From: a virus
DNA length: 32,022 nucleotides
IMG/VR virus record: IMGVR_UViG_3300044699_000028
Location: 1 to 32,022 of that record
Strand: one strand, 5' to 3'
Below the pieces are notes generated by a model. It did not search any database. It saw only the letters and a list, made by a program, of their open reading frames with translations, and was not told where the DNA came from. Positions 2 to 32,022 of this stretch are shown piece by piece (the first letter of the stretch is position 1; each line of letters starts with the position of its first letter). The position numbers and the translations under genes were made by a program.

Positions 2-98
2 TGGATCGCCGAAGCCCTAGACGCTCAGGGCCTGCTCTCCACCCCCGAGATGCGGCAGGCGGTGGAGGCGTGCAAGCGACTGGCGCTGGCGTTCGATG
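2..98 (+). CDS. 3' part of a hypothetical protein (partial)
   Basis: The reading frame is already open at the window edge and encodes WIAEALDAQGLLSTPEMRQA and onward to about residue 33, with coding-like composition. The frame stays open to about 307, but the coding signal passes to the next gene at 96, so the true stop is probably near 98 and obscured by an indel. I do not recognise the family and the start lies outside the window. Confidence 0.4.
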
Positions 99-1777: not shown

Positions 1778-1902
1778 GAACCGCACTGGTCTACTTCGTC
1801 GTCCTGCTCTGCGTCACCGTCCTGTCTCGCCACCGAGGCCCAAGGCCGATCTCCCGTTACTACCAAGGGGTGGACTGGCTTCTCTGGTGGATCCGCCGGT
1901 AG
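1774..1902 (+). CDS. Small membrane protein, 42 aa
   Basis: The ATG at 1774 lies within ATGA at the preceding stop and follows a good ribosome site (AAGGAAAGGAA). Residues 3-18 (TALVYFVVLLCVTVLS) form a membrane segment, followed by a basic stretch and an aromatic tail (GVDWLLWWIRR). Stop at 1900-1902 directly abuts the next ATG. Function unknown. Confidence 0.55.
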   Translation: MRTALVYFVVLLCVTVLSRHRGPRPISRYYQGVDWLLWWIRR

Positions 1903-2317
1903 ATGACGCTCCCCCGCAAGAGGCCGAAGCGAAGAAGCTGCTGGGCTTCGCCACCCCCAAGCGTGCCCTGAACCTGCGGAGCATGGTCAAGGACTTGGAC
2001 CGGCTGGCGAAGGAAGCCACCATGCAACGGGCCGGAAGGCGCTGCGAACGCTGCGGAACTGCCGACCGGCTCCAGTGGCATCATGTATACTCACGACGCA
2101 TCCAAAGCCTGCGCTGGGATCTCGACAACCTCGTGATTCTCTGTGCAGGGCATCACCTCTGGTGGCACCATAACCCCGATGGCATGCGGTAGAATGGTTT
2201 CAGGAGTACGCACCCCCCGACCGGCTCGAGCGGCTGAGACTCAAGCGCATGACCGTCCGCCGCACCGATCTGGCCGGGCTACGCATCCTGCTCCAGAACC
2301 AGGTGGGCGAGAGATGA
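1903..2317 (+). CDS. HNH endonuclease next to the terminase, frameshifted
   Basis: About 135 residues after bridging shifts near 1925 and 2180. It has the Cys-His HNH signature: CERCG, then LQWHHVYSRR (the HH of the catalytic strand), LDNLVILC and AGHHLWWHHNP. The tail, read in a third frame, is EWFQEYAPPDRLERLRLK and ends in GER with TGA at 2315-2317, overlapping the next ATG. HNH proteins encoded beside terminases in several phages (for example HK97 gp74) assist terminase cleavage during packaging; that role here is inferred from position. A homing endonuclease is the alternative. Confidence 0.75.
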
Positions 2318-2674
2318 CCGAGGCCCAGAAGGCTGCGGCCAGAGAGAACGGCAAGATGGGGGGCAGGCCGACCTCCACCCTGACCGACCTCCGCAAGAAG
2401 GCACGCGAGGACGCCCAGAAGCTACTGGCCGCCATGCAGACCCGTGCCGTCCAGTTCCTCTCCGAGGTCATGCTGGACGAGTCCGTGGACGTGAGAGAAC
2501 GGGTCAAGTGCGCCACCGAACTGCTCGACCGTGGCGAGATGCCGAAGAAGTCGGCTAACTTCCACGGGGTGGGAGAGATCAGCGAGATGGACGCCATCTT
2601 CTCTGCTCCCAAGATGTTCGTCGTGAGCAAGTATGGTGCCGAAACCACCGAGGAAACCCGGGCGTGCAGGCTGA
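2314..2674 (+). CDS. terS: Terminase small subunit (putative)
   Basis: The ATG overlaps the HNH stop (ATGA). The protein starts MTEAQKAAARENGKMGGRPT and continues as a helical domain with ERVKCATELLDRGEMPKKSA, a pattern typical of small proteins directly upstream of terL. A small subunit recognises packaging-site DNA and recruits the large subunit. The literal frame runs on far beyond, but the coding signal of terL starts at about 2664, and a one-base indel in the CCCGGG at 2658-2663 would give a stop at 2672-2674. No clear helix-turn-helix was identified, so the call rests on position and general similarity. Confidence 0.55.
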
Positions 2675-4202
2675 AATCCTCGAGCCCGACATGGACCCCC
2701 GCTTCAAGCCGGGGGCAGGGTTCGAGGTCAACTCCTGGGCGCAAGAGCGGTTCCACTGGTCGCAGGCCCCCTGAACTGCTCTACTCCGGCACCGAGGGTC
2801 CAGCAAGAGCCGGACGATCTGCGAGAAGCGGACTATCTCTGCCGCTCCATCCCCGGCGCTCGCATCGTTCTCTCGCGGAAGAACGCGAGCACATGGGCAA
2901 GACCACGCTCGTCACGCTCCTGCTCCGAGACGATCACCCCGGCTCACAAGCAGTGGGGCTGGAACCCATCGGCTGACGGTGGCTCGACCCTCTACTACCC
3001 GAACGGGTCCGAGATCCTATGCGCGGGCCTGGACAACCCCGGAAGGATGCTCAGTGGCGAGTTCATGGCAAACTTTACGGACCAAGCGGAGGAACTGGAC
3101 GAGGAAGAGTTTGTCGCAATCGGCGGAAGTCTACGCCAACGGACCGACCGCTTGGGTAACCGCATCCCCTTCCAGCAGCTCGGGCTGGCTTGCAACCCTG
3201 GCGGGACAGGTCATTTCCTCTACCGACGCTTCCGGCCCGATCGCTGCGAGCACGGCTCCAGCTACATCCAGCGGTCCGAGTCCGATACCCGCCTGCTCTC
3301 CGGGGTCAAGTTCCCCGCCGGGAGAGTGCTTCGAGAGTGTATCGTCGCCGGGCTCGCGGATAACATGGAGAATCTGCCCCCCGCGTACCAGCTCTGGCTC
3401 GAGAGCCTGACCGGGCGCTACCGGGAGCGGTTCGTGCTGGGGCAAGTGGGTGGCCTTCGAGGGCTCCCTGTTCGACCACTTCGATGAGCGATTCCACGTT
3501 ATCGACCGGCCCGCCGAATGGTCGCTCTGGGGCGGGTATCCCCCACCCACCTGGAAGCGGGTCCGGTCGGTAGACTTCGGATACACGGCCCCGTTCGTCT
3601 GGCAGTGGTGGGCGATCTCCCCCGAGAAGGTCTGGCACCTCTACCGTGAGATCTACCGCTCGCAGCGCATGGTGGCCGACCACGCCAAGGTGGGGAAGGC
3701 CGAGGAAGCGAAGGAGCTGGCGCCCTGAACGCTGCCATGACCGAGCAGGACAAGGAGAAGTGGCCCCGACGCCCCCTGCTTGAGCGCCTGTCCTTCTCCG
3801 GCTCATACGCAGACCACGCGGACGCAGAGGCGCGCGCCCAGCCTCCAGGCCTGGGGTTCTCGACCTCTCCGGCAGTCAAGGACCGGGACGCTGGCTACCA
3901 GACGCTCTACGAGGCGCTTGGCCCCGAGGTTGAACCCCGCCACGAACGAGACGCGCGCCCGGCTCTACTTCATCCGGGACGCACGCTGCGAGGCCCCGAC
4001 CCGCACCTCGGTCCACTCCGGCAAGCCGACATGCACGCACGAGGAAATCCCCCTGTTGCAGTTCCTGCCCGAGCCGACCTCCGCGACCAGCCCCGAGAAG
4101 GAGGGCAACATCAAGCGGAATGACCACGGATACGACGCAGCCAGATATGCGCTACACTCCCACCTGGTAGGTGGACCGTCTGACCTGATCTCACTCAAGT
4201 GA
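2664..4202 (+). CDS. terL: Terminase large subunit, broken by at least eight frameshifts
   Basis: Packaging motor ATPase-nuclease, about 510 residues when frames are joined. The GTG at 2664 is the likely start (VQAEILEPDMDPRF). A Walker-A-like segment reads GTEGSSKSRT near 2790-2810; further on are LYYPNGSEILCAGLDNPGRM and the ATPase coupling region (FTDQAEELDEEEFVAIGGSL). The C-terminal RNase H-like nuclease has VRSVDFGYTAPFVWQWW with its first catalytic Asp and ends NDHGYDAARYALHSH, the usual last acidic motif. Frames change near 2772, 2797, 2828, 2900, 2925, 3437, 3705 and 3930. Identity is secure; the exact protein sequence is not. Confidence 0.9.
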
Positions 4203-4208
4203 GGGACG

Positions 4209-5058
4209 ATGCGGAACGCTGATTGGGCGGCGACCTGCGAAGGGCTGCGCGCATCCATCAACCCCATCGACTGTTTGAAGATCCCTCCAGTGCGTGTAAC
4301 TCCCCGCTGGACTGGTACGACTGGCCTCAGACGACAGCCTACGGGACGGTACCGCCCCGTTCATCGGGCGCAGGGACTGCGACCCAGATCAACCCGACTA
4401 AGCAGCAAGGGTTGATGACCTACTACGTTGGGACTAGCGGGGGCGAACAAGGTCTGGGAAGCCATTATGGCATGGGGCATCATCCCGATTCCGGTCACGA
4501 GTCCGGTGCAGCATCGCAACTCGTTCGGATGCCGTTTTTCTGGAACATGAACTTCAATCGCTCCAACCCGATCGGTAACAACACGGGCGAGAAGTATCAC
4601 GGCATCTCGTGGGGCGATAGCTGGAGCATCGACACCCCGTGGCAAACCAACTTCGAGGCTGCGCTCGGGAACTGCAACGCCCGCATAGGGCTGCACTACA
4701 ACTACACACTGGAATCATGGCAGGTGCAGGTGTTCAGCGAGAACGACCCGCAGACCGGCCCCGACCTGTACACATGCGTCTATCAGCCGACCTTTCTCGG
4801 TGGACCTGAACCCCGCCGACCTCGCCCTGCTCTGGGTTCCTGCCGATGCGAACGGGGCGCAGGAGCCGACTGGTGGCCCTGCTCAACGGATCATCGCCCT
4901 GAACCTGTTCGACAACCCGAGGTGCAACGCCATCTCGGACCGATTCCACGAGTACGACCGGCCCCCGGGATCTACTTCACGAACGGGTCGGATGCCGCGT
5001 CCGAGGTGGTGAGGCTGGGTTCTACACGGGCCGCTTCTGGATCGGGATGTCGCGATGA
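4209..5058 (+). CDS. Paralogue A of a tandem pair, unknown function, frameshifted
   Basis: About 283 residues after bridging shifts near 4275, 4795, 4970 and 5015. It starts MRNADWAATCEGLRASINPI seven bases after terL. Landmarks shared with the next gene are: DWFEDP and a CN-x-P-x-DWY-x-W motif near residue 25-40 (the W is inferred across a shift), FFWNMNFNRS, GEKYHGIS followed by a serine-tryptophan segment and TPWQT, IGLHYNYT, LALLWVP, FDNPRCN and EAGFYTGRFW at the end. Tryptophan and tyrosine are abundant and two cysteines are conserved. No known fold is recognised. Position between terminase and portal suggests a virion or packaging-associated protein, but this is only inference. The stop overlaps the next start as ATGA. 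Confidence 0.65.
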
Positions 5059-5931
5059 TGAAGCGCCAGCGTATCGACGACATCGCCGCAGGGCTGCGCC
5101 GCTCGAATATCCCGATGGACTGGTTCGAGGATCCCAACAACGGCTGCAACTGCCCCCCCGGATTGGTACGAGTGGAGCCACCTGGTGCTGCCGGGTGCGT
5201 CGAACGTCTCACCGTTCCAAGGGCAGAGGACGGCGGCCATCCAGTCGGACAAGCGGCACGGGCTCATGCTGTTCCTGGATACGGTCGCGGGGGTGAATCA
5301 GGTGTACGAGGTCGTCAAGGCATGGACGATCTTCCCCTATGCGAACAAACCCGGCCCTGAACCCCGGAGGGTCGTTCGCCCAGCCGTGGTTCTGGTCGAT
5401 GGGATTTCAACCGCTCGAAACGCTGCGGGAACCGACGCGGGGGAGAAGTATCAGGGTATTTCTTTCGCTCATCGTGGAACATCAACACCCCGTGGCAGAC
5501 GGGCTACGCCGGAGCGCCTCACCTTGGCGGCAGCGGTGAGGTCAGGGTCGGGCTTCATTACAACTACACCACGAACAAGTGGACAGGTGCAGATCGCCAG
5601 CCTCTACGACCCGGACGCCCTCGATGGTGCGCCGCAGTTGATCGACTGCGCGATACAGCCCCCGTTCGTGGTGACAGTGCTCCGGCGGAGGTTTCGCTCC
5701 TATGGGTGCCACGCGACAGGACGGGGCGCAACTCCCGTCTGGTGGCCGATGCACAACGGGACCATGATCCTCGACCTGCTGGACAACCCCCGTTGCAACC
5801 AGATTCCAAACAGCTCAAGCGCCTACGGTCCCGGCTACTACTTCACGCACGGCAGCGGAGCGTCCTCGCGAGCGTCGGAGGCCGGTTACTTCACGGGCCG
5901 CCTATGGGCTCCCGTGCCGCGCTACACGTAG
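5055..5931 (+). CDS. Paralogue B of a tandem pair, unknown function, frameshifted
   Basis: About 290 residues across several shifts (about 5155, 5355, 5410, 5465, 5580, 5680-5740). It starts MMKRQRIDDIAAGLRRSNIP and mirrors paralogue A in order and spacing: DWFEDPNNGCNCPP then DWYEW, PWFWSMGF, GEKYQGIS, SWNINTPWQT, VGLHYNYT, VSLLWVP, LDNPRCN and EAGYFTGRLW. Similarity is visible at protein level only, so the duplication is old. Function unknown; see the separate finding. Coupled to the upstream gene by ATGA; stop TAG at 5929-5931. Confidence 0.65.
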
Positions 5932-6195: not shown

Positions 6196-8410
6196 ACCCG
6201 ATTCTCCGAAGCGTGTCGCGCGCACTGGCCCCCTTCTCGCGGGGCATGTCGGCGTCGCAGCTCCCGATGGGAACCTCGTGGCAGCTTGGCCGACCCTGGA
6301 ACCTGACGCCCGAATACACCGACTTCCCGTGGGCCTATCGACTCGTCCCTACGGTCCAGTTCTGCGTTGATCTCCACCAGAGCACCATCGCAGCGACACC
6401 GTTGAAGTTCTACTAGGCGACGGGGACCGGAAGAAGGAGCTGGAGCGCCAGCCGGGGAACATCGCGGACATGTGGGCGCGCGCGAACACGGAGCAGACCG
6501 GCTACGAGCTGACCGAGGATCTGGTGGGCTCGATGGAGATTTTCGGGAACGCCTACCTGTTCAAGGACTTTGCGGGGACCAAGCGCGTTCCAACAGTTCT
6601 GGATGCTGAACCCCAACTCCTGCAAGCCCGTGCAGAACTCCGGGCGGTCGGTCGCCTACTACGAGGTGCAGGAAGGGCGGCGCGTGGTGAAGGTTCCGCG
6701 CGAGCAGATCGTCCACTTCAAGCGGTACGACCCGGAGATGGGGGCCTTGGGAGTCTCCCGGCTGCAGGCCCTCTCCCTGTCGTATGAGACAGAGCGGGAC
6801 TCAGCCCGGTTCCAGCGGGAGTTCTACCGCAAGGGGGCGCAGGCGGCGGGGCACTACTCGACCGAATCCGCCATCGACGATGACGACATTGCGCGGTTGA
6901 AGGCCCAGTTCAAGACCCATTTCCAAGGCATCGAGAACTCGTGGGATCCGGTCATGCTCCCGAAGGCGCTCAAGTACACGCGCGCGGGGCTCACCTTCGC
7001 CGAGATGCAGTTCATCGAGAGCCACAAGCTGACCTCGCAGGAAATCCTCAAGGTCTACAAGGTGCCCCCGATGCTGGCTGGCATCCTGGAGGGGGCTCGG
7101 GCTCAACTCGACGTGGCCCGAGTCTCGATGGAGCTGTTCCTGCGCTTCGGCATCATGCCCTCGACCACCCGCATCGCTGCCAAGCTGAACGAGTCCCTGC
7201 TCGAGTCCGGGGAGTTCGGATTCAACATCTCGTGCGAGTTCGACTTCTCGAACGACCCGGTGATGGTGGCAGCGTTCCTGACGCAAGCGGAGATGTGGAA
7301 CAAGGCCACCGGAGCGCCCCACATCAGCCGGGCCGAGGCTAGGGACCATCAGGGCCTGCCCCCGCGCGAGGACTCCGAGGGGCTGGACGAGATCCTTGTT
7401 CCTGCGGGGATGCAGTCTGCGGAGATGGCGAAGGCTCAGGCCGAGGTGGACCTGGAGAACGCGAAGAATCCCCCTGAGCCCCCGCCCCAAGCACTCCCCC
7501 CGGATCAACCCCCGGTCAAACCGGAGCCGGAACAGAAGGCGCGAACCTTCGACCGTGCCATGAACCGGGAAGTTGCGAGGGCGCGGGCTCAGAGGCGACT
7601 CACGGCCCACGAGGCCAAGGTCGCCACCTTCGCCAGACGCCACTTCCTCGCCCAGACGAAGCGGTTGAAGCGAAGCTGAGGGCACAGTCGCGGGCCTACG
7701 ACTTGGACGAGATCCTGGCGACACTGGACGACCCCGAGGCCATCAAGAAGGCCCGGAAGCTGGTCCGTGGCATCGTGTCGGATGCCGGGGACGACGCTAT
7801 CGCCGAGCTGGCGCAAGACCTGTCGTTCGCCCTCTCAGCCTCTCAGGCGCGGGCATTCGTGGAGCAGAAGGGGCCAAGCTGGTGCGGGACATCGACGCCA
7901 CCACGCGGGCCGCCTTGCAGGAAGTCCTGTCGGAAGCCTTCGCAGACGGGGCCGGGCTGGACCGGCTCATCACCGAAGTCGATGGCGTCATGGGCGACCG
8001 CCTGGAGCGTGCGAGCCGGATCGCGCGGACGGAAACCTCTGCCGCTTACAACTTCGGGACGCTGGAGGGCTATCGCCAGTCCGGGGTGGTGTCGCAGAAG
8101 GAATGGCTCACCTCGCATGACGAGGCCGTGCGCGAGACGCACAAGGCCATCGAGGAAGCCGGACCCATCCCGCTGGACGCTGACTTCATCTCGCCGGACG
8201 GGGCTCGACTGTCCTTCCCCGGTGACCCCGACTGCAATCGATGCGGGCGAGGTAGTAAACTGCCGCTGCACGATGGTTCCGGTCCTCTCACCTCTGGACC
8301 GCGCCATCCCAGATCCCATAAGTAAACGGATGCAGCCCGGCGTGAACGGTTCCGCACAAGGGAAAAGGATTACCCTTGAGAGCTGGCTCCGAGGTACGCC
8401 CTCACGCTGA
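6192..8410 (+). CDS. Portal protein fused to a Mu-F-like head morphogenesis domain, frameshifted
   Basis: The start MNPILRSVSRALAPFSRGMS at 6192 is coupled to the upstream gene. The portal part (to about 7650) has HK97/PF04860-type landmarks: GSMEIFGNAYLFKD, VPREQIVHFKRYDPEMGALG, SRLQALSLSYETERDSARFQ, LTSQEILKVYKVPPMLAG. A proline-rich linker (PPEPPPQALPPDQPPV) and a basic helical region follow. The Mu-F part (PF04233) has IARTETSAAYNFGTLEGYRQ, QKEWLTSHDEAVRETH and DAGEVVNCRCTMVPV, the diagnostic end motif. Shifts lie near 6418, 6575, 7665, 7870 and 8235. At 7665 the reading resumes (VEAKLRAQSRAYDLDEIL) with no start codon or ribosome site, which argues for one fused protein. The portal is the dodecameric DNA gate; Mu-F-like domains act in procapsid assembly. 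The C-terminal end is uncertain (stop at 8408-8410). Confidence 0.85.
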
Positions 8411-24092: not shown

Positions 24093-24449
24093 TTGGACCC
24101 CTCTGGAACGAATGCGTATTGGAATGAGCGCACGAAACTTCCAGACGTGAGAGAGCAACGCAGAATCCGAGCGAGAAGGAACAAGGTTCAAGTCATCGCG
24201 CTTCTGGGCGGTTCGTGCGAGATATGCGGGGACGCACTCACCGAGCACATGACTATAGATCACCCGCAGGGCAATGGGCGAGAGCATCGCAGGAAGTATG
24301 GGGCGGCCCAGCGCATCCTGTACCGCATTCGCCGACGCGAGGAAGATACGCTAGACCTTCGCCTGCTGTGCTACTCATGCAACTGCTCTCTGGGGCACCA
24401 CGGCTACTCACCCATCGAGGCCATGAGGGTGCTCTATGCAGCTGGTTAG
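24093..24449 (+). CDS. HNH / endonuclease VII-like nuclease, about 118 aa
   Basis: Two CxxC pairs and a DH motif are visible: CEICG, then MTIDHPQGNGREHRRKYG, and LRLLCYSCNCSLGHHGYSP. This is the zinc-bound HNH arrangement common in small phage nucleases (CxxC, then IDH...G..HR, then LCxxCN). The literal frame opens at TTG 24093 with DPSGTNAYWNERTKLPDVRE; a GTG at 24065, overlapping the upstream TAG, is the better coupled start but needs an indel before 24093. Free-standing homing or DNA-processing role possible. Overlaps the endolysin start by 14 bases. Confidence 0.75.
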   Translation: MDPSGTNAYWNERTKLPDVREQRRIRARRNKVQVIALLGGSCEICGDALTEHMTIDHPQGNGREHRRKYGAAQRILYRIRRREEDTLDLRLLCYSCNCSLGHHGYSPIEAMRVLYAAG

Positions 24450-24867
24450 GGAATACGTAATGGTGCACCACTCGCTGACGAAAGATGGAACCTCCAAGTC
24501 ATGGCCCGCGATCCGGCGTTACCACATGGAGCAGGGCTGGAATGATATCGGCTACCACGCCGGGGTCGAACTCGTGAGCGACCATCTAGAAGCAATGCTG
24601 GGCAGGCCGGAAGATCAGGTGGCGGCGGCATGCAAAGAAGATCACATGAACGCCCGCGCGTTACATCTCTGCATAGTCGGCAACTTCGACTTGACCCCCC
24701 CGAGCGACACGGTGCTGAGTTTCGCGGCCCGCGTCGTGGTCAAGCCTTGGCTAGAGCGATATGGCCTTGGCTCGGAGAGCATCATCGGCCACCGGGACCG
24801 GGCGCATTACAAGTCGTGCCCCGGCTTCATGTTCGACCTGGACAGACTGAGGATGGCTTGTGCGTGA
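24436..24867 (+). CDS. Endolysin: N-acetylmuramoyl-L-alanine amidase (Amidase_2/PGRP)
   Basis: Intact, 143 residues. Cleaves the bond between N-acetylmuramic acid and L-alanine. The T7-lysozyme pattern is clear: zinc ligands H11 (in YVMVHHS), H119 (IIGHRDR) and C128 (YKSCPG), catalytic Tyr 40 (IGYHAGVE) and Lys 126. HLCIVGNFDLTPPS is the conserved central strand. The length equals a single catalytic domain with no cell-wall binding module and no signal peptide, so a holin is needed. It lies upstream of a single-span coiled-coil protein and a holin candidate, and overlaps the preceding nuclease by 14 bases. The start is ATG 24436; an internal ATG at residue 9 is too late for the fold. Confidence 0.9.
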   Translation: MQLVREYVMVHHSLTKDGTSKSWPAIRRYHMEQGWNDIGYHAGVELVSDHLEAMLGRPEDQVAAACKEDHMNARALHLCIVGNFDLTPPSDTVLSFAARVVVKPWLERYGLGSESIIGHRDRAHYKSCPGFMFDLDRLRMACA

Positions 24868-25178: not shown

Positions 25179-25188
25179 CCCGGAGGTG

Positions 25189-25542
25189 ATGGTGGAGCAG
25201 ATTCTCGCATGGCTGGCGAACCCGCTGGCTCAGGCCATCCTGCTGAACGTGGGTGGCTGGATCCTCAAGACCTGGCCCGTGTTCGTGAACAAGGCCATCC
25301 CGCTGGCCCTGCTCGTGGTCAGCATCCTGGGCAACCTGCTGGCGGCCCTCTGGCCGAACCTCGTCCCGGCGGCTGGGGCTGCCGAGCTGGCTCAGGCCGT
25401 GGCGTCCGTGCCGTGGTGGAAGGCTGCGGGCCTCTGGGGCTGGCAGGTGGCCTTCCCGGTGGTCATCGCGGTGGGCCTGCACTCCAGCAGCAAGAACGTT
25501 CGGGAGTGGGCGAGTCTGGGGAACGGGCTGCTCAAGCGTTAG
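25189..25542 (+). CDS. Holin (putative), about 117 aa
   Basis: Intact. The GGAGG at 25182-25186 is only two bases before ATG 25189 and five before GTG 25192, so GTG 25192 may be the real start; both give nearly the same protein. It is hydrophobic throughout: an amphipathic first segment (ILAWLANPLAQAILLNVGGW), a span at about 37-57 (AIPLALLVVSILGNLLAALW) and another at about 84-102 (LWGWQVAFPVVIAVGLHSS), then a basic end (SKNVREWASLGNGLLKR). Two or three spans, a basic tail and the neighbouring endolysin fit a holin that releases the amidase. Confidence 0.65.
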   Translation: MVEQILAWLANPLAQAILLNVGGWILKTWPVFVNKAIPLALLVVSILGNLLAALWPNLVPAAGAAELAQAVASVPWWKAAGLWGWQVAFPVVIAVGLHSSSKNVREWASLGNGLLKR

Positions 25543-29251: not shown

Positions 29252-29370
29252 CGTTCCGGGGGGTAGTGGGGAGCCCTTGGCGGGGCCGCTGGATCATCCA
29301 GCACTCTCCATTCATGACGGGGGCGTCAGCCCCCCGGATTCACTCTAGGGAGCGCAGATGCTCAGTCTGA
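29248..29370 (+). CDS. Short open frame before csrA (doubtful)
   Basis: ATG 29248 overlaps the upstream stop (ATGA), giving 40 residues (MTFRGVVGSPWRGRWIIQHS onward). The frame overlaps the start of csrA and contains two inverted repeats, so this may be a csrA leader and not a gene. Composition is no guide at this length. Confidence 0.25.
   Translation: MTFRGVVGSPWRGRWIIQHSPFMTGASAPRIHSRERRCSV
29288..29302 (+). promoter_or_regulatory. Palindrome upstream of csrA
   Basis: GCTGGATCATCCAGC is a perfect seven-base inverted repeat around a central C. It lies 56 bases before the csrA start and holds a GGA. It could be an operator or an RNA hairpin (five-base stem, five-base loop). Role unproved. 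Confidence 0.3.
29319..29334 (+). promoter_or_regulatory. Tight GC hairpin in the csrA leader
   Basis: GGGGGC (29319-29324) pairs with GCCCCC (29329-29334) around GTCA, ending 23 bases before the csrA start. It is followed by CGGATTCACTCT and the AGGGAG ribosome site. It could reduce read-through or set translation of csrA; no T-run argues against an intrinsic terminator. Confidence 0.35.
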
Positions 29371-29600
29371 ACCGCAACGTGGGCGAGATCGTGCTGGTCG
29401 GAGGGGGTGCCCTCATCATCCTGGGAGTCGAGGGCGGGAATGTCCGCATCGGCTTCGACTTCCCCGAGGACACGGAGATCTGGCGCTCTGAACTCCGGCA
29501 CCTGACCCCGGCTGCCCGCAGGCTCATCGAGGCCCGCAAGGCTTCGCAGGCCGAACAAGTCGAGAAGGTTCTGACCGAGAGAACTTCGGTGAGACAGTAA
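29358..29600 (+). CDS. csrA: CsrA/RsmA-family post-transcriptional regulator, phage-encoded
   Basis: Intact, 80 residues. ATG 29358 is seven bases after AGGGAG. CsrA is a small homodimer that binds GGA-containing hairpins in mRNA leaders. The protein aligns over its full core with E. coli CsrA: MLSLNRNVGEIVLV (matching MLILTRRVGETLMI), ILGVEGGNVRIGFDFPED (matching VLGVKGNQVRIGVNAPKE) and IWRSEL (matching VHREEI). RNA-contact residues Leu 4 and Arg 6 are kept, and Arg 43 aligns with the key Arg 44; Arg 7 is replaced by Asn. A charged helical tail of about 30 residues follows (AARRLIEARKASQAEQVEKV), longer than in typical CsrA. Located between the recombination genes and a secreted protein, it may redirect host or phage mRNAs. 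The stop TAA overlaps the next ATG (TAATG). Confidence 0.9.
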   Translation: MLSLNRNVGEIVLVGGGALIILGVEGGNVRIGFDFPEDTEIWRSELRHLTPAARRLIEARKASQAEQVEKVLTERTSVRQ

Positions 29601-29868: not shown

Positions 29869-30303
29869 ATGCACGCTGTTCGGAGGATGGTAGTTCTGGG
29901 GACCGGAGAGCTGGACGATGGAGCCGAGCAGTCGATTCTAGAAGCCGTCCGGCGCGGGGAGTGGCTGCGCGCCGAGGACGTGATGGGGAACGGCTGGAGC
30001 AGGGACTACGCCCCCGTTCGCAACCTGTCCGACATGATCTCAGACCACGAGCGGGCCGTCCGCAAGCTGGCGAGCGACCGCCGTGCGGCGATCAGGATGC
30101 GTCGCAGGCAGGACGAGGCCGCGTTCCTCAAACGTGAGTCAGAGCGCAGTGATTACGCCCGGCATAGACGGCAGGAGGAAACCGCCCGGATGGTCGAGCA
30201 GATGACGTGGGCGCTGGAGCAGGCGAGGCGGAATGCCGCCCAGCCGCTACGGACAGAGGAACTACTCTCTCGGGCGCGGATCATCTTGGAGCGTGCGAAA
30301 TGA
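29869..30303 (+). CDS. Hypothetical charged helical protein, 144 aa
   Basis: Intact. ATG 29869 follows AGGTAGGGAGCGA. MHAVRRMVVLGTGELDDGAE is followed by a strongly helical, arginine- and glutamate-rich body (VRKLASDRRAAIRMRRRQDE; RQEETARMVEQMTWALEQAR), probably a coiled coil. No motif recognised. The stop overlaps the next start (ATGA at 30300), so it is coupled to the winged-helix gene. Confidence 0.65.
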   Translation: MHAVRRMVVLGTGELDDGAEQSILEAVRRGEWLRAEDVMGNGWSRDYAPVRNLSDMISDHERAVRKLASDRRAAIRMRRRQDEAAFLKRESERSDYARHRRQEETARMVEQMTWALEQARRNAAQPLRTEELLSRARIILERAK

Positions 30304-30611
30304 CCCGTCTCCTGCCGCAGCTAGAAATCGACTTCACCGACACGAGCCAGGAAGCGTTCGACTCCATCCTGCCCCACTTGGGGAAGATCGAGGCCGAGGT
30401 GTTCCGGGTCATCTCCGAGGCCGGGAGTCGGGGAGCCACCTCCGATGAGGTGGAGGTAGCACTGGAGGGACGGCACCAGACCATCTCCAGCCGCATCTGG
30501 GCGCTCACGAGGCGCGGGGTAGTCCGAGACTCTGGTCAACGCAGGAAAACGCGCTCAGGCCGAAATGCGGCAGCGTGGGTGTCCACGGTAGGGCCTACGG
30601 AGGAAGCATGA
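30300..30611 (+). CDS. Winged helix-turn-helix DNA-binding protein, 103 aa
   Basis: Intact and coupled at both ends by ATGA. A wHTH domain covers about residues 27-92: KIEAEVFRVISEAGSRGATS, DEVEVALEGRHQTISSRIWA (helix-turn-helix with recognition helix HQTISSRIWAL) and RRGVVRDSGQRRKTRSGRNA with AAAWV (the wing). This pattern recurs in small phage proteins and is expected to bind DNA. It lies directly before the secreted glycosidase-like gene. It may regulate this unit; targets unknown. Confidence 0.75.
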   Translation: MTRLLPQLEIDFTDTSQEAFDSILPHLGKIEAEVFRVISEAGSRGATSDEVEVALEGRHQTISSRIWALTRRGVVRDSGQRRKTRSGRNAAAWVSTVGPTEEA

Positions 30612-31777
30612 ACGCCAAGGAAGCGCGGACCTATTGGGGAGTGGTCATCCTGCTGGCCATCCTGCTGGGGGTGCTGCTCCAGTGCGCAGAGGCTCACGCC
30701 GAGGGCTATCCCCGCATCGGGGCCTATGTGGGGGTCCGCTCCGGTGGTCAACCCCTGACTCGAGCGGACGGCTCCATCGACTCTGCGGTATGCCGGGACT
30801 TCGCCCGGTTCCCGGAGGTGGCCCTCGACCACAACGCCCTGCACATCGGGGCAGCGATCATCCCGACCCTGCTGCACTTCAACCCCGAGATCCGCATCGA
30901 TGGGTACCAGCATTGCGCGAGCTGGTGGCTGGCCCCGGACTTCCCGGTGCAGTCGTCAGATAAGACCTTCAACGCCTACTGGCATCTGGGCTTGCAGGCC
31001 ACGCACGGGTTCATCGCCGGGGCTCCGAGGGAGTACCAGGTCAACCTCGCCCAGCGAGCGACCGTGGACACGATGGGCTCCCTGATGATCTGGAGCCTCG
31101 AGCGCCTTCGGATCTCCGGGATGTTCTGGGACTACTGCTCTCCGGCGGCCAGTTGGGTTCCGGTGGGTAACACGTTCACCGACCAGGAGCGCATCCGAAA
31201 CGTGGCCCAGATGAGCGCCCGGATTCGGGACGCCATGCCCTACGGGTTCAAGGTGTACGGGAACGGGACAGGGGCAGAGTCCTGCGGGCTGGACGGTACG
31301 CTGGTCGAGGGCTTCCCCGGCTCGGTCGGGCCGTTCTCCAAGGCCATCGCCCAGAAGGACGGGGACTGGCTCAAGTCGGAGGGGAGCCGGACGGACTACC
31401 GGGCGCAGCGGTTCGTGCTGGGGACCGCGTGCCTGACCGGGGCGAGGCTGACCTACGGGCAGCAGGTGGTGGACGCTGGGGGGCAAGGCTGGCCGGGCCA
31501 GTGGTGGTTCGACGAGTGGAGCGTCACGCCGGAGGGGAAGCCGGACCCCACGGGGCAGCATGTCGGGTGGCTGGGGGAAGCCTTGGGACCGTTCACGAAG
31601 CTGGCGAGCGGGCTCTATGTCCGCTTCTTCGAGCATGGGGCAGACCTCGTGAACCCGACCGGGAACCCCATCACGCAGGACATGATCTGGCCCCGCTACC
31701 ACCGCATCGGGCAGTTGGACCCGGTGCTCAAGGTGGTGGTCCCTGCGACTGATGCCGTGCTGCTTTGGGGCGACTGA
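30608..31777 (+). CDS. Secreted TIM-barrel glycosidase-like protein (GHL15-like)
   Basis: Intact, 389 residues. A signal peptide is clear: basic start, hydrophobic core (WGVVILLAILLGVLLQ) and an AEAHA site, cleavage likely after residue 31. The mature protein follows the strand order of hypothetical glycoside hydrolases with a TIM barrel: RIGAYVGV, FPEVALDHNAL, IIPTLLHFNPEIRIDGYQHC with SWWLAPDF, SLERLRISGMFWDYCSPAAS (Asp 175), YGFKVYGNG, GLDGTLVEGFPGSV (Glu 234) and a C-terminal GLYVRFFEHGADLVNPTGNP, typical of the last beta domain. Asp 175 and Glu 234 are candidate catalytic acids. It is coupled to the wHTH gene. A secreted, non-virion enzyme in a phage suggests attack on, or change of, extracellular polysaccharide; the substrate is unknown. 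Confidence 0.7.
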   Translation: MNAKEARTYWGVVILLAILLGVLLQCAEAHAEGYPRIGAYVGVRSGGQPLTRADGSIDSAVCRDFARFPEVALDHNALHIGAAIIPTLLHFNPEIRIDGYQHCASWWLAPDFPVQSSDKTFNAYWHLGLQATHGFIAGAPREYQVNLAQRATVDTMGSLMIWSLERLRISGMFWDYCSPAASWVPVGNTFTDQERIRNVAQMSARIRDAMPYGFKVYGNGTGAESCGLDGTLVEGFPGSVGPFSKAIAQKDGDWLKSEGSRTDYRAQRFVLGTACLTGARLTYGQQVVDAGGQGWPGQWWFDEWSVTPEGKPDPTGQHVGWLGEALGPFTKLASGLYVRFFEHGADLVNPTGNPITQDMIWPRYHRIGQLDPVLKVVVPATDAVLLWGD

Positions 31778-31956
31778 TGCGCCCCAGGTTCTATCTCGCG
31801 GTCGCGCTGCTGGCGATCTTGGCAGGCTGTGCGTTTCGGTTCGTCCAGACCCTCAGCGTGGGGGTCGGGAAGCAGGCCGCAGACACATGCAAAGGGAGAA
31901 GCGATGACTACGGAACCGGGGGCCGCCAAGATGAACGAACAAGTTCGCAAAGCTGA
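31777..31956 (+). CDS. Small lipoprotein, up to 59 aa
   Basis: ATG 31777 shares its A with the upstream TGA (TGATG). A lipoprotein signal is present: MRPRFYLAVALLAILAGC, with LAGC as lipobox and Cys 18 as the lipidated residue. The short mature part has little structure. The frame ends at 31956 but overlaps a well-placed gene start at 31904, so an indel may hide an earlier stop at 31905-31907. Could be an outer-membrane spanin subunit or a superinfection-type lipoprotein; no evidence decides. Confidence 0.55.
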   Translation: MRPRFYLAVALLAILAGCAFRFVQTLSVGVGKQAADTCKGRSDDYGTGGRQDERTSSQS

Positions 31957-32022
31957 GCAATGCGTCCGGCAGCACGCGCAGCACCTACGCTGGGGGATCG
32001 CCGGGGACAGGGACACGTTCCG
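31904..32022 (+). CDS. Hypothetical protein (5' part, runs off the window)
   Basis: ATG 31904 lies five bases after AAAGGGAG and reads MTTEPGAAKMNEQVRKAEQC then VRQHAQHLRWGIAGDRDTF, open to the window edge. It is a charged helical start. It overlaps the end of the lipoprotein frame. No motif is visible yet. Confidence 0.5.
   Translation, partial: MTTEPGAAKMNEQVRKAEQCVRQHAQHLRWGIAGDRDTF

Follow-up and report, generated by a model that had tools for sequence, protein, structure and literature searches.

A putative exported glycosidase of the GHL15 type in a phage genome, and exchange of its catalytic domain behind a resident export signal

Introduction

Why should a phage carry a glycosidase that appears destined for export from the infected cell, at a distance from its own tail genes? 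The question is raised by a gene near the end of a viral DNA stretch of 32,022 nt (IMG/VR record IMGVR_UViG_3300044699_000028; the whole stretch is called the window below). A first-pass annotation had proposed a signal peptide, a barrel glycosidase layout with Asp175 and Glu234 as candidate acids, and a position far from the tail genes, next to a DNA-binding protein and csrA; it suggested either export to alter extracellular polysaccharide or a shared gene of host origin. Our analysis adds phage homologues, a swap of catalytic domains behind a signal that stayed in place, and a lipobox in three homologues. It points to a phage-made, exported endo-glycosidase whose target is probably a polysaccharide of the host surface or matrix.

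Results

The glycosidase is encoded by an uninterrupted open reading frame (ORF) of 389 codons with an ATG start; an in-frame GTG at 30575 could extend it, but falls within the upstream gene. The ORF is real and not a chance reading frame, because it is conserved in frame, with differences from its homologue in phage record L008 of 0.28/0.20/0.50 at the three codon positions. Initial searches of the contigs in IMG/VR and GTDB, with the window protein as sole query, returned no relative, tblastn of INPHARED phages and PLSDB plasmids gave no match, and the protein alone matched nothing in PHROGs; neither PHROGs nor NCBIfam holds a family for it. Relatives were fetched first through phages sharing backbone genes with the window, and then with alignments. 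The resulting family alignment has nine members: besides the window protein, it comprises seven proteins encoded in further IMG/VR records and one (L013) encoded on a Candidatus Eisenbacteria contig, these eight relatives being 29-63% identical to the window protein. Homologues, all of them outside PHROGs and INPHARED, are thereby placed in four or more further phage lineages.

The family is tied to GHL15, Pfam PF14885, the hypothetical glycoside hydrolase family 15 of Naumoff 2011, because the homologue P0005 exceeds the curated Pfam cut-off (50.9 against 27 bits, positions 2-270 of 271). P0005 is 29-30% identical to the window protein (tblastn E 1e-31), and five of the nine family rows match GHL15 at E up to 1. 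The GHL15 profile search advised at first pass thus succeeded for a relative, while the window protein itself stayed below threshold at 17 bits; its membership goes by whole-domain homology to an accepted member, spanning the barrel, and not by score.

With the nine-sequence alignment, AlphaFold2 predicted a (beta/alpha)8 barrel followed by a C-terminal beta domain (predicted local distance difference test, pLDDT, 84.1; predicted template modelling score 0.81), with barrel strands at about 38-40, 70-74, 96-102, 171-175, 215-218, 230-234, 254-257 and 280-283; from the single sequence, without an alignment, the model was meaningless (pLDDT 38). In the model, strand beta4 terminates at Asp175 and strand beta6 at Glu234; neither residue varies across the nine aligned sequences, down to 29% identity. 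The predicted structure therefore has the barrel with two conserved acids expected of GHL15, and the layout and acids named by the first-pass annotation are both upheld. A structure search of BFVD found no close viral structure, the best matches being GH5-like and spherulation-type barrels.

Two independent routes, sequence profile and fold, agree on PbFucA and GH168 as the nearest characterised enzymes. A profile search of PDB sequences reached PbFucA (8rg5) at E 2.9e-4 with alignment A7 and 5.2e-5 with A4, and also 9f9v at E 0.007; the alignment to 8rg5 pairs both acids, in motifs DGVFMD (Asp) and AAMIEH (Glu). The first 14 places in Foldseek are GH168 fucanases, 9f9v and PbFucA (E 2.5e-12 to 1.3e-9, template modelling (TM) scores 0.5-0.6), led by the GH168 endo-fucanase 8ya6 (E 2.5e-12, TM 0.56/0.59). 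By Foldseek and the cited residue pair, the protein has the GH168 arrangement of a barrel with Asp nucleophile and Glu acid/base; by sequence it falls outside the family, since the family profile matches 9jos, a GH168 entry, no better than at E 0.17 and a single-sequence search with the window protein found no GH168 or other match in PDB. The corresponding pair of MeGH168 is Asp167/Glu237, in which the Asp is predicted to act as nucleophile and the Glu as acid/base (PMC12210190), and GH114, GH191 and GH166 have the same Asp-Glu pair 58-69 residues apart (PMC12054363). Asp175 and Glu234 lie 59 residues apart, and this agreement in acid pair and spacing supports, by analogy, a retaining mechanism with Asp as nucleophile and Glu as acid/base.

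The signal peptide of the first-pass annotation was recovered by rules for n-, h- and c-regions with an A-x-A motif, without a trained predictor. The n-region has a net charge of +1, the h-region spans residues 12-23 with a mean Kyte-Doolittle value of 3.5, and A-H-A ends at residue 31, with cleavage predicted after Ala31. All nine family members have a hydrophobic, export-like N-terminal segment. In three phage homologues a lipobox replaces the plain signal (L008, ASSC; L018, MSSC; L007, LGGC), and these are probably membrane-anchored lipoproteins.

The signal and the mature enzyme of the window have different nearest relatives. On both sides of the gene, backbone DNA of the window and of record L005 is 78-86% identical, and the first 80 bases of the gene region (30603-30682) are 95% identical by blastn. 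In a 60-base profile, identity to L005 then drops from about 0.8-0.9 to about 0.5 at ~30695, coinciding with the border between signal and mature protein, and recovers at ~31905. At the amino-acid level, identity to L005 is 0.84 in the signal and 0.37 in the mature part (Fisher p 4e-7), whereas identity to L008 is 0.26 and 0.66 (Fisher p 2e-5); the mature enzyme is 60% identical to that of L018. The glycosidase tree joins the window, L008, L018 and L050 at 100/98 and excludes L005. Because the backbone joins the window to L005 while the mature enzyme joins L008, L018 and L050, the discontinuity shows a swap of the mature domain behind a resident export signal, in the lineage of either the window or L005; the small downstream ORF was probably exchanged along with it. 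The terminases of L008 and L050 have no detectable similarity to that of the window, and that of L018 is 36% identical, so that the window's clade of the glycosidase has circulated among unrelated phages.

Cellular sampling covered the Eisenbacteria phylum, in which 17 of 47 genomes hold relatives, often in tandem. The L013 homologue adjoins recA- and alaS-like genes, as read from translations, and has a type IX secretion sorting domain, on account of which it probably acts extracellularly. A terminase search of the 47 genomes, aimed at placing the host, gave weak matches (E 2e-9) in one of them. Since the phage sequences form two groups in the glycosidase tree, genes of this family have probably passed between cells and phages more than once. 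The first-pass idea of a gene shared with hosts is thus right in that cellular homologues exist, and a simple host-gene pick-up is too plain an account because of these two groups and the clade circulating among unrelated phages.

Table 1. Features of the glycosidase locus and of other genes in the window
Feature	Position	Strand	Basis
Predicted exported GHL15-type glycosidase gene	30608..31777	+	intact ORF; homologues; barrel model
Signal peptide (predicted), residues 1-31 (AHA/EG)	30608..30700	+	rule-based; 84% amino-acid identity to L005
Asp175 codon, predicted nucleophile, end of beta4	31130..31132	+	alignment, profile search, AlphaFold2 model
Glu234 codon, predicted acid/base, end of beta6	31307..31309	+	alignment, profile search, AlphaFold2 model
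Exchanged segment: mature glycosidase and, probably, downstream small ORF	30695..31905	+	60-base profile, blastn
Shine-Dalgarno-like GGAGG	30599..30603	+	sequence
Winged-helix-like DNA-binding protein (phrog_1123, E 4e-14)	30300..30611	+	direct upstream neighbour
Small putative lipoprotein, lipobox LAGC, 59 codons	31777..31956	+	sequence
YqaJ-type recombination nuclease, backbone, 86% amino-acid identity to L005	28428..29033	+	
CsrA-family protein	29358..29600	+	Pfam 9.8e-10
N-acetylmuramoyl-L-alanine amidase, likely endolysin	24436..24867	+	Pfam Amidase_2 3.4e-12
Candidate holin	25186..25542	+	Phage_holin_5_2 2.4e-4, 21.7 bits, cut-off 29.2

The glycosidase is tightly packed between its neighbours (Table 1). 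The stop of the winged-helix gene overlaps its ATG (ATGA) and its own stop overlaps the start of the small lipoprotein-like ORF (TGATG), and because of these overlaps the three genes are probably translationally coupled. L005 (6152-6340) and L018 (7149-7472) likewise have a lipoprotein-like ORF coupled to the stop of the glycosidase; the three sequences are dissimilar, and an exclusion or spanin-like role is possible. At L005 4306-4983, an inserted N6/N4 DNA methylase sits precisely at the junction of winged-helix gene and glycosidase. Of the two neighbours named at first pass, the DNA-binding protein does adjoin the gene, while csrA is present and ends 1.0 kb upstream. Five of the eight glycosidase-bearing records carry csrA at varying distances (the window, G004, G006, G008 and G055), as does fragment G002, which is without a glycosidase; with no base rate set for csrA, the association is suggestive only. 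In L050, two ORFs lie between csrA and the glycosidase (4220-5388), glycosyltransferase- and methyltransferase-like by eye, the first without a Pfam match. An Rfam scan of the last 3 kb of the window gave no match.

Both ends of the window are contiguous in L005 (L005 6352-6461 corresponds to window 31910-32020, and 6465-6540 to window 2-77), and the window is therefore a circularly permuted, near-complete phage genome, though classed as linear. In this permuted genome the terminase genes follow the glycosidase at a distance of about 2 kb, and the gene order agrees with the first-pass placement of the glycosidase far from the tail genes, outside the virion module. The gene occupies three different genome positions: the window, L005, L008, L018 and L050 have it before the terminase, L002 has it between terminase and portal, and L010 has it beside an integrase. 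The backbone relative L004 has no glycosidase in its 27.8 kb record. Because of these varied positions and the absence from L004, it is a typical cargo gene, useful but outside the core. The terminase-portal gap may be a second cargo slot: two diverged copies of a 287-amino-acid protein without an NCBIfam family lie there in the window (4256-5919) and L005 (10631-11494), and L002 has its glycosidase in this gap. Relative to L005, window 1851-4260 has 13 indels, ten of them single-base, that break the terminase genes; the portal, Erf and tape-measure-like ORFs of the window also appear frame-broken, which would reflect decay or errors of assembly. No such damage affects the glycosidase ORF.

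Discussion

We consider it probable that the product of this gene is a retaining endo-glycosidase of GHL15 type, made by the phage and exported, that acts on a surface or matrix polysaccharide of the host. Its Sec signal would take the enzyme across the infected cell's inner membrane. To judge from its fold and aligned relatives, the mature barrel would cleave a polysaccharide with alpha linkages, Asp175 serving as nucleophile and Glu234 as acid/base. The target would most likely belong to the host itself, as a polysaccharide of its surface or matrix, reached from the periplasm or after lysis, and cutting it could free progeny or strip binding sites. Variation of this target between hosts may in turn be what leads phages to exchange the catalytic domain, through recombination, behind a resident signal. 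A host target of this kind is favoured because lysis is served by separate enzymes and because the sorting domain of the L013 homologue points outside the cell.

Several points weigh against this account. The swap is visible in one close backbone pair only, and the export signal of the window protein is predicted by rules alone. In a diderm, a signal peptide delivers only as far as the periplasm, and the lipobox-bearing homologues may stay membrane bound; of the first-pass suggestion of export to alter extracellular polysaccharide, the predicted export thus stands, and action on an exopolysaccharide beyond the periplasm is conjecture. Catalysis and substrate are predictions, TM scores near 0.56 with 10-13% identity leave the substrate unfixed, and the literature that we found gives no characterised GHL15 member and no enzyme activity.

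Among alternatives, the best placed, though still unlikely, is a surface-modifying exclusion factor, in which an infected or lysogenic cell would export the enzyme, alone or with its coupled lipoprotein, and so alter the receptor glycan and block re-adsorption. The export signal, the lipoboxes of L008, L018 and L007 and the coupled lipoprotein-like ORF in three phages all fit, as do the position of the L010 homologue beside an integrase, the usual site of lysogenic-conversion genes, and the integrases of G055 and G056. Against this, no integrase was found in the window record, early expression remains conjectural, and the exclusion proteins known to us are mostly small and are not glycosidases.

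Rather less probable is an auxiliary role in lysis, in which the enzyme would attack peptidoglycan or some other glycan of the envelope. Export to the periplasm would suit it, and Cwp19, the first GHL10 protein to be characterised, hydrolyses peptidoglycan (PMC5765458), demonstrating that a hypothetical glycosidase family can attack the wall. Nonetheless, an amidase endolysin and a candidate holin lie 5-6 kb away, four relatives have their own endolysins (G005, G001, G055 and, as a GH108 enzyme, L010), the enzymes nearest in structure cut different polysaccharides, with alpha linkages, and a conserved target would not predict domain exchange. A role as the endolysin itself is rejected on account of the same separate lysis genes in the window and in relatives.

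We think it slightly more doubtful still that the gene is an auxiliary metabolic gene of cellular origin, freeing environmental sugar for the infected host as soil-virus chitosanases would. Viral carbohydrate enzymes are known (PMC9485262), and the Eisenbacteria-phylum homologues, one with an extracellular sorting domain, would be in keeping with such an origin; yet no uptake or catabolic genes are adjacent, the gain within one infection cycle is doubtful, and exchange behind a fixed signal better suits a host-specific target. A virion-attached, tailspike-like depolymerase would be expected to share both the chemistry and the habit of domain exchange, but is highly improbable for a protein that carries an export signal, leaves no space for a domain of tail attachment or trimerisation, and is encoded between recombination genes and terminase, outside the tail module.

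Returning to the exported host-directed glycosidase, we tentatively suggest an extension, which we hold to be possible and not probable: an export cassette, in which a resident signal and a fixed frame (winged-helix gene upstream, lipoprotein-like ORF downstream) receive different mature glycosidases, as a cell-exported counterpart of tailspike exchange. Matrix synthesis can be repressed by bacterial relatives of the phage CsrA; acting alongside that phage protein, such a cassette would strip the host matrix by both cutting it and halting its synthesis. An enzyme that the infected cell exports, and whose catalytic part unrelated phages trade behind a fixed signal, would imply that phages adapt to host glycans beyond their tail proteins, also via proteins exported by the dying or lysogenic cell. 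More generally, the homologues offer a small, testable enzyme set for an uncharacterised glycosidase family and link GHL15 to the GH168/GH114 group.

Comparison with known systems helps to place the enzyme. The soil viral chitosanase V-Csn (GH75) is likewise a phage-borne carbohydrate enzyme from IMG/VR contigs, of a different fold and family, for which a signal peptide is unmentioned in PMC9485262. GH168 and PbFucA (8rg3/8rg5) provide the best fold match, over nearly the whole length, and the best profile match, with a corresponding Asp/Glu pair; they serve catabolism in marine or planctomycete bacteria, and at the identity and TM scores given above a fucan substrate is not implied for the window protein. 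The endo-galactosaminidases of GH114, GH191, GH135 and GH166 (Ega3, TmGH191, Sph3, PelAH) act on matrix polysaccharides, but are absent among the fold matches listed, and their link to the window protein is at superfamily level only. Finally, tailspike depolymerases cleave host glycans and exchange their catalytic part by recombination; they do so as parts of the virion, whereas the enzyme described here would, as its signal predicts, be exported by the cell.
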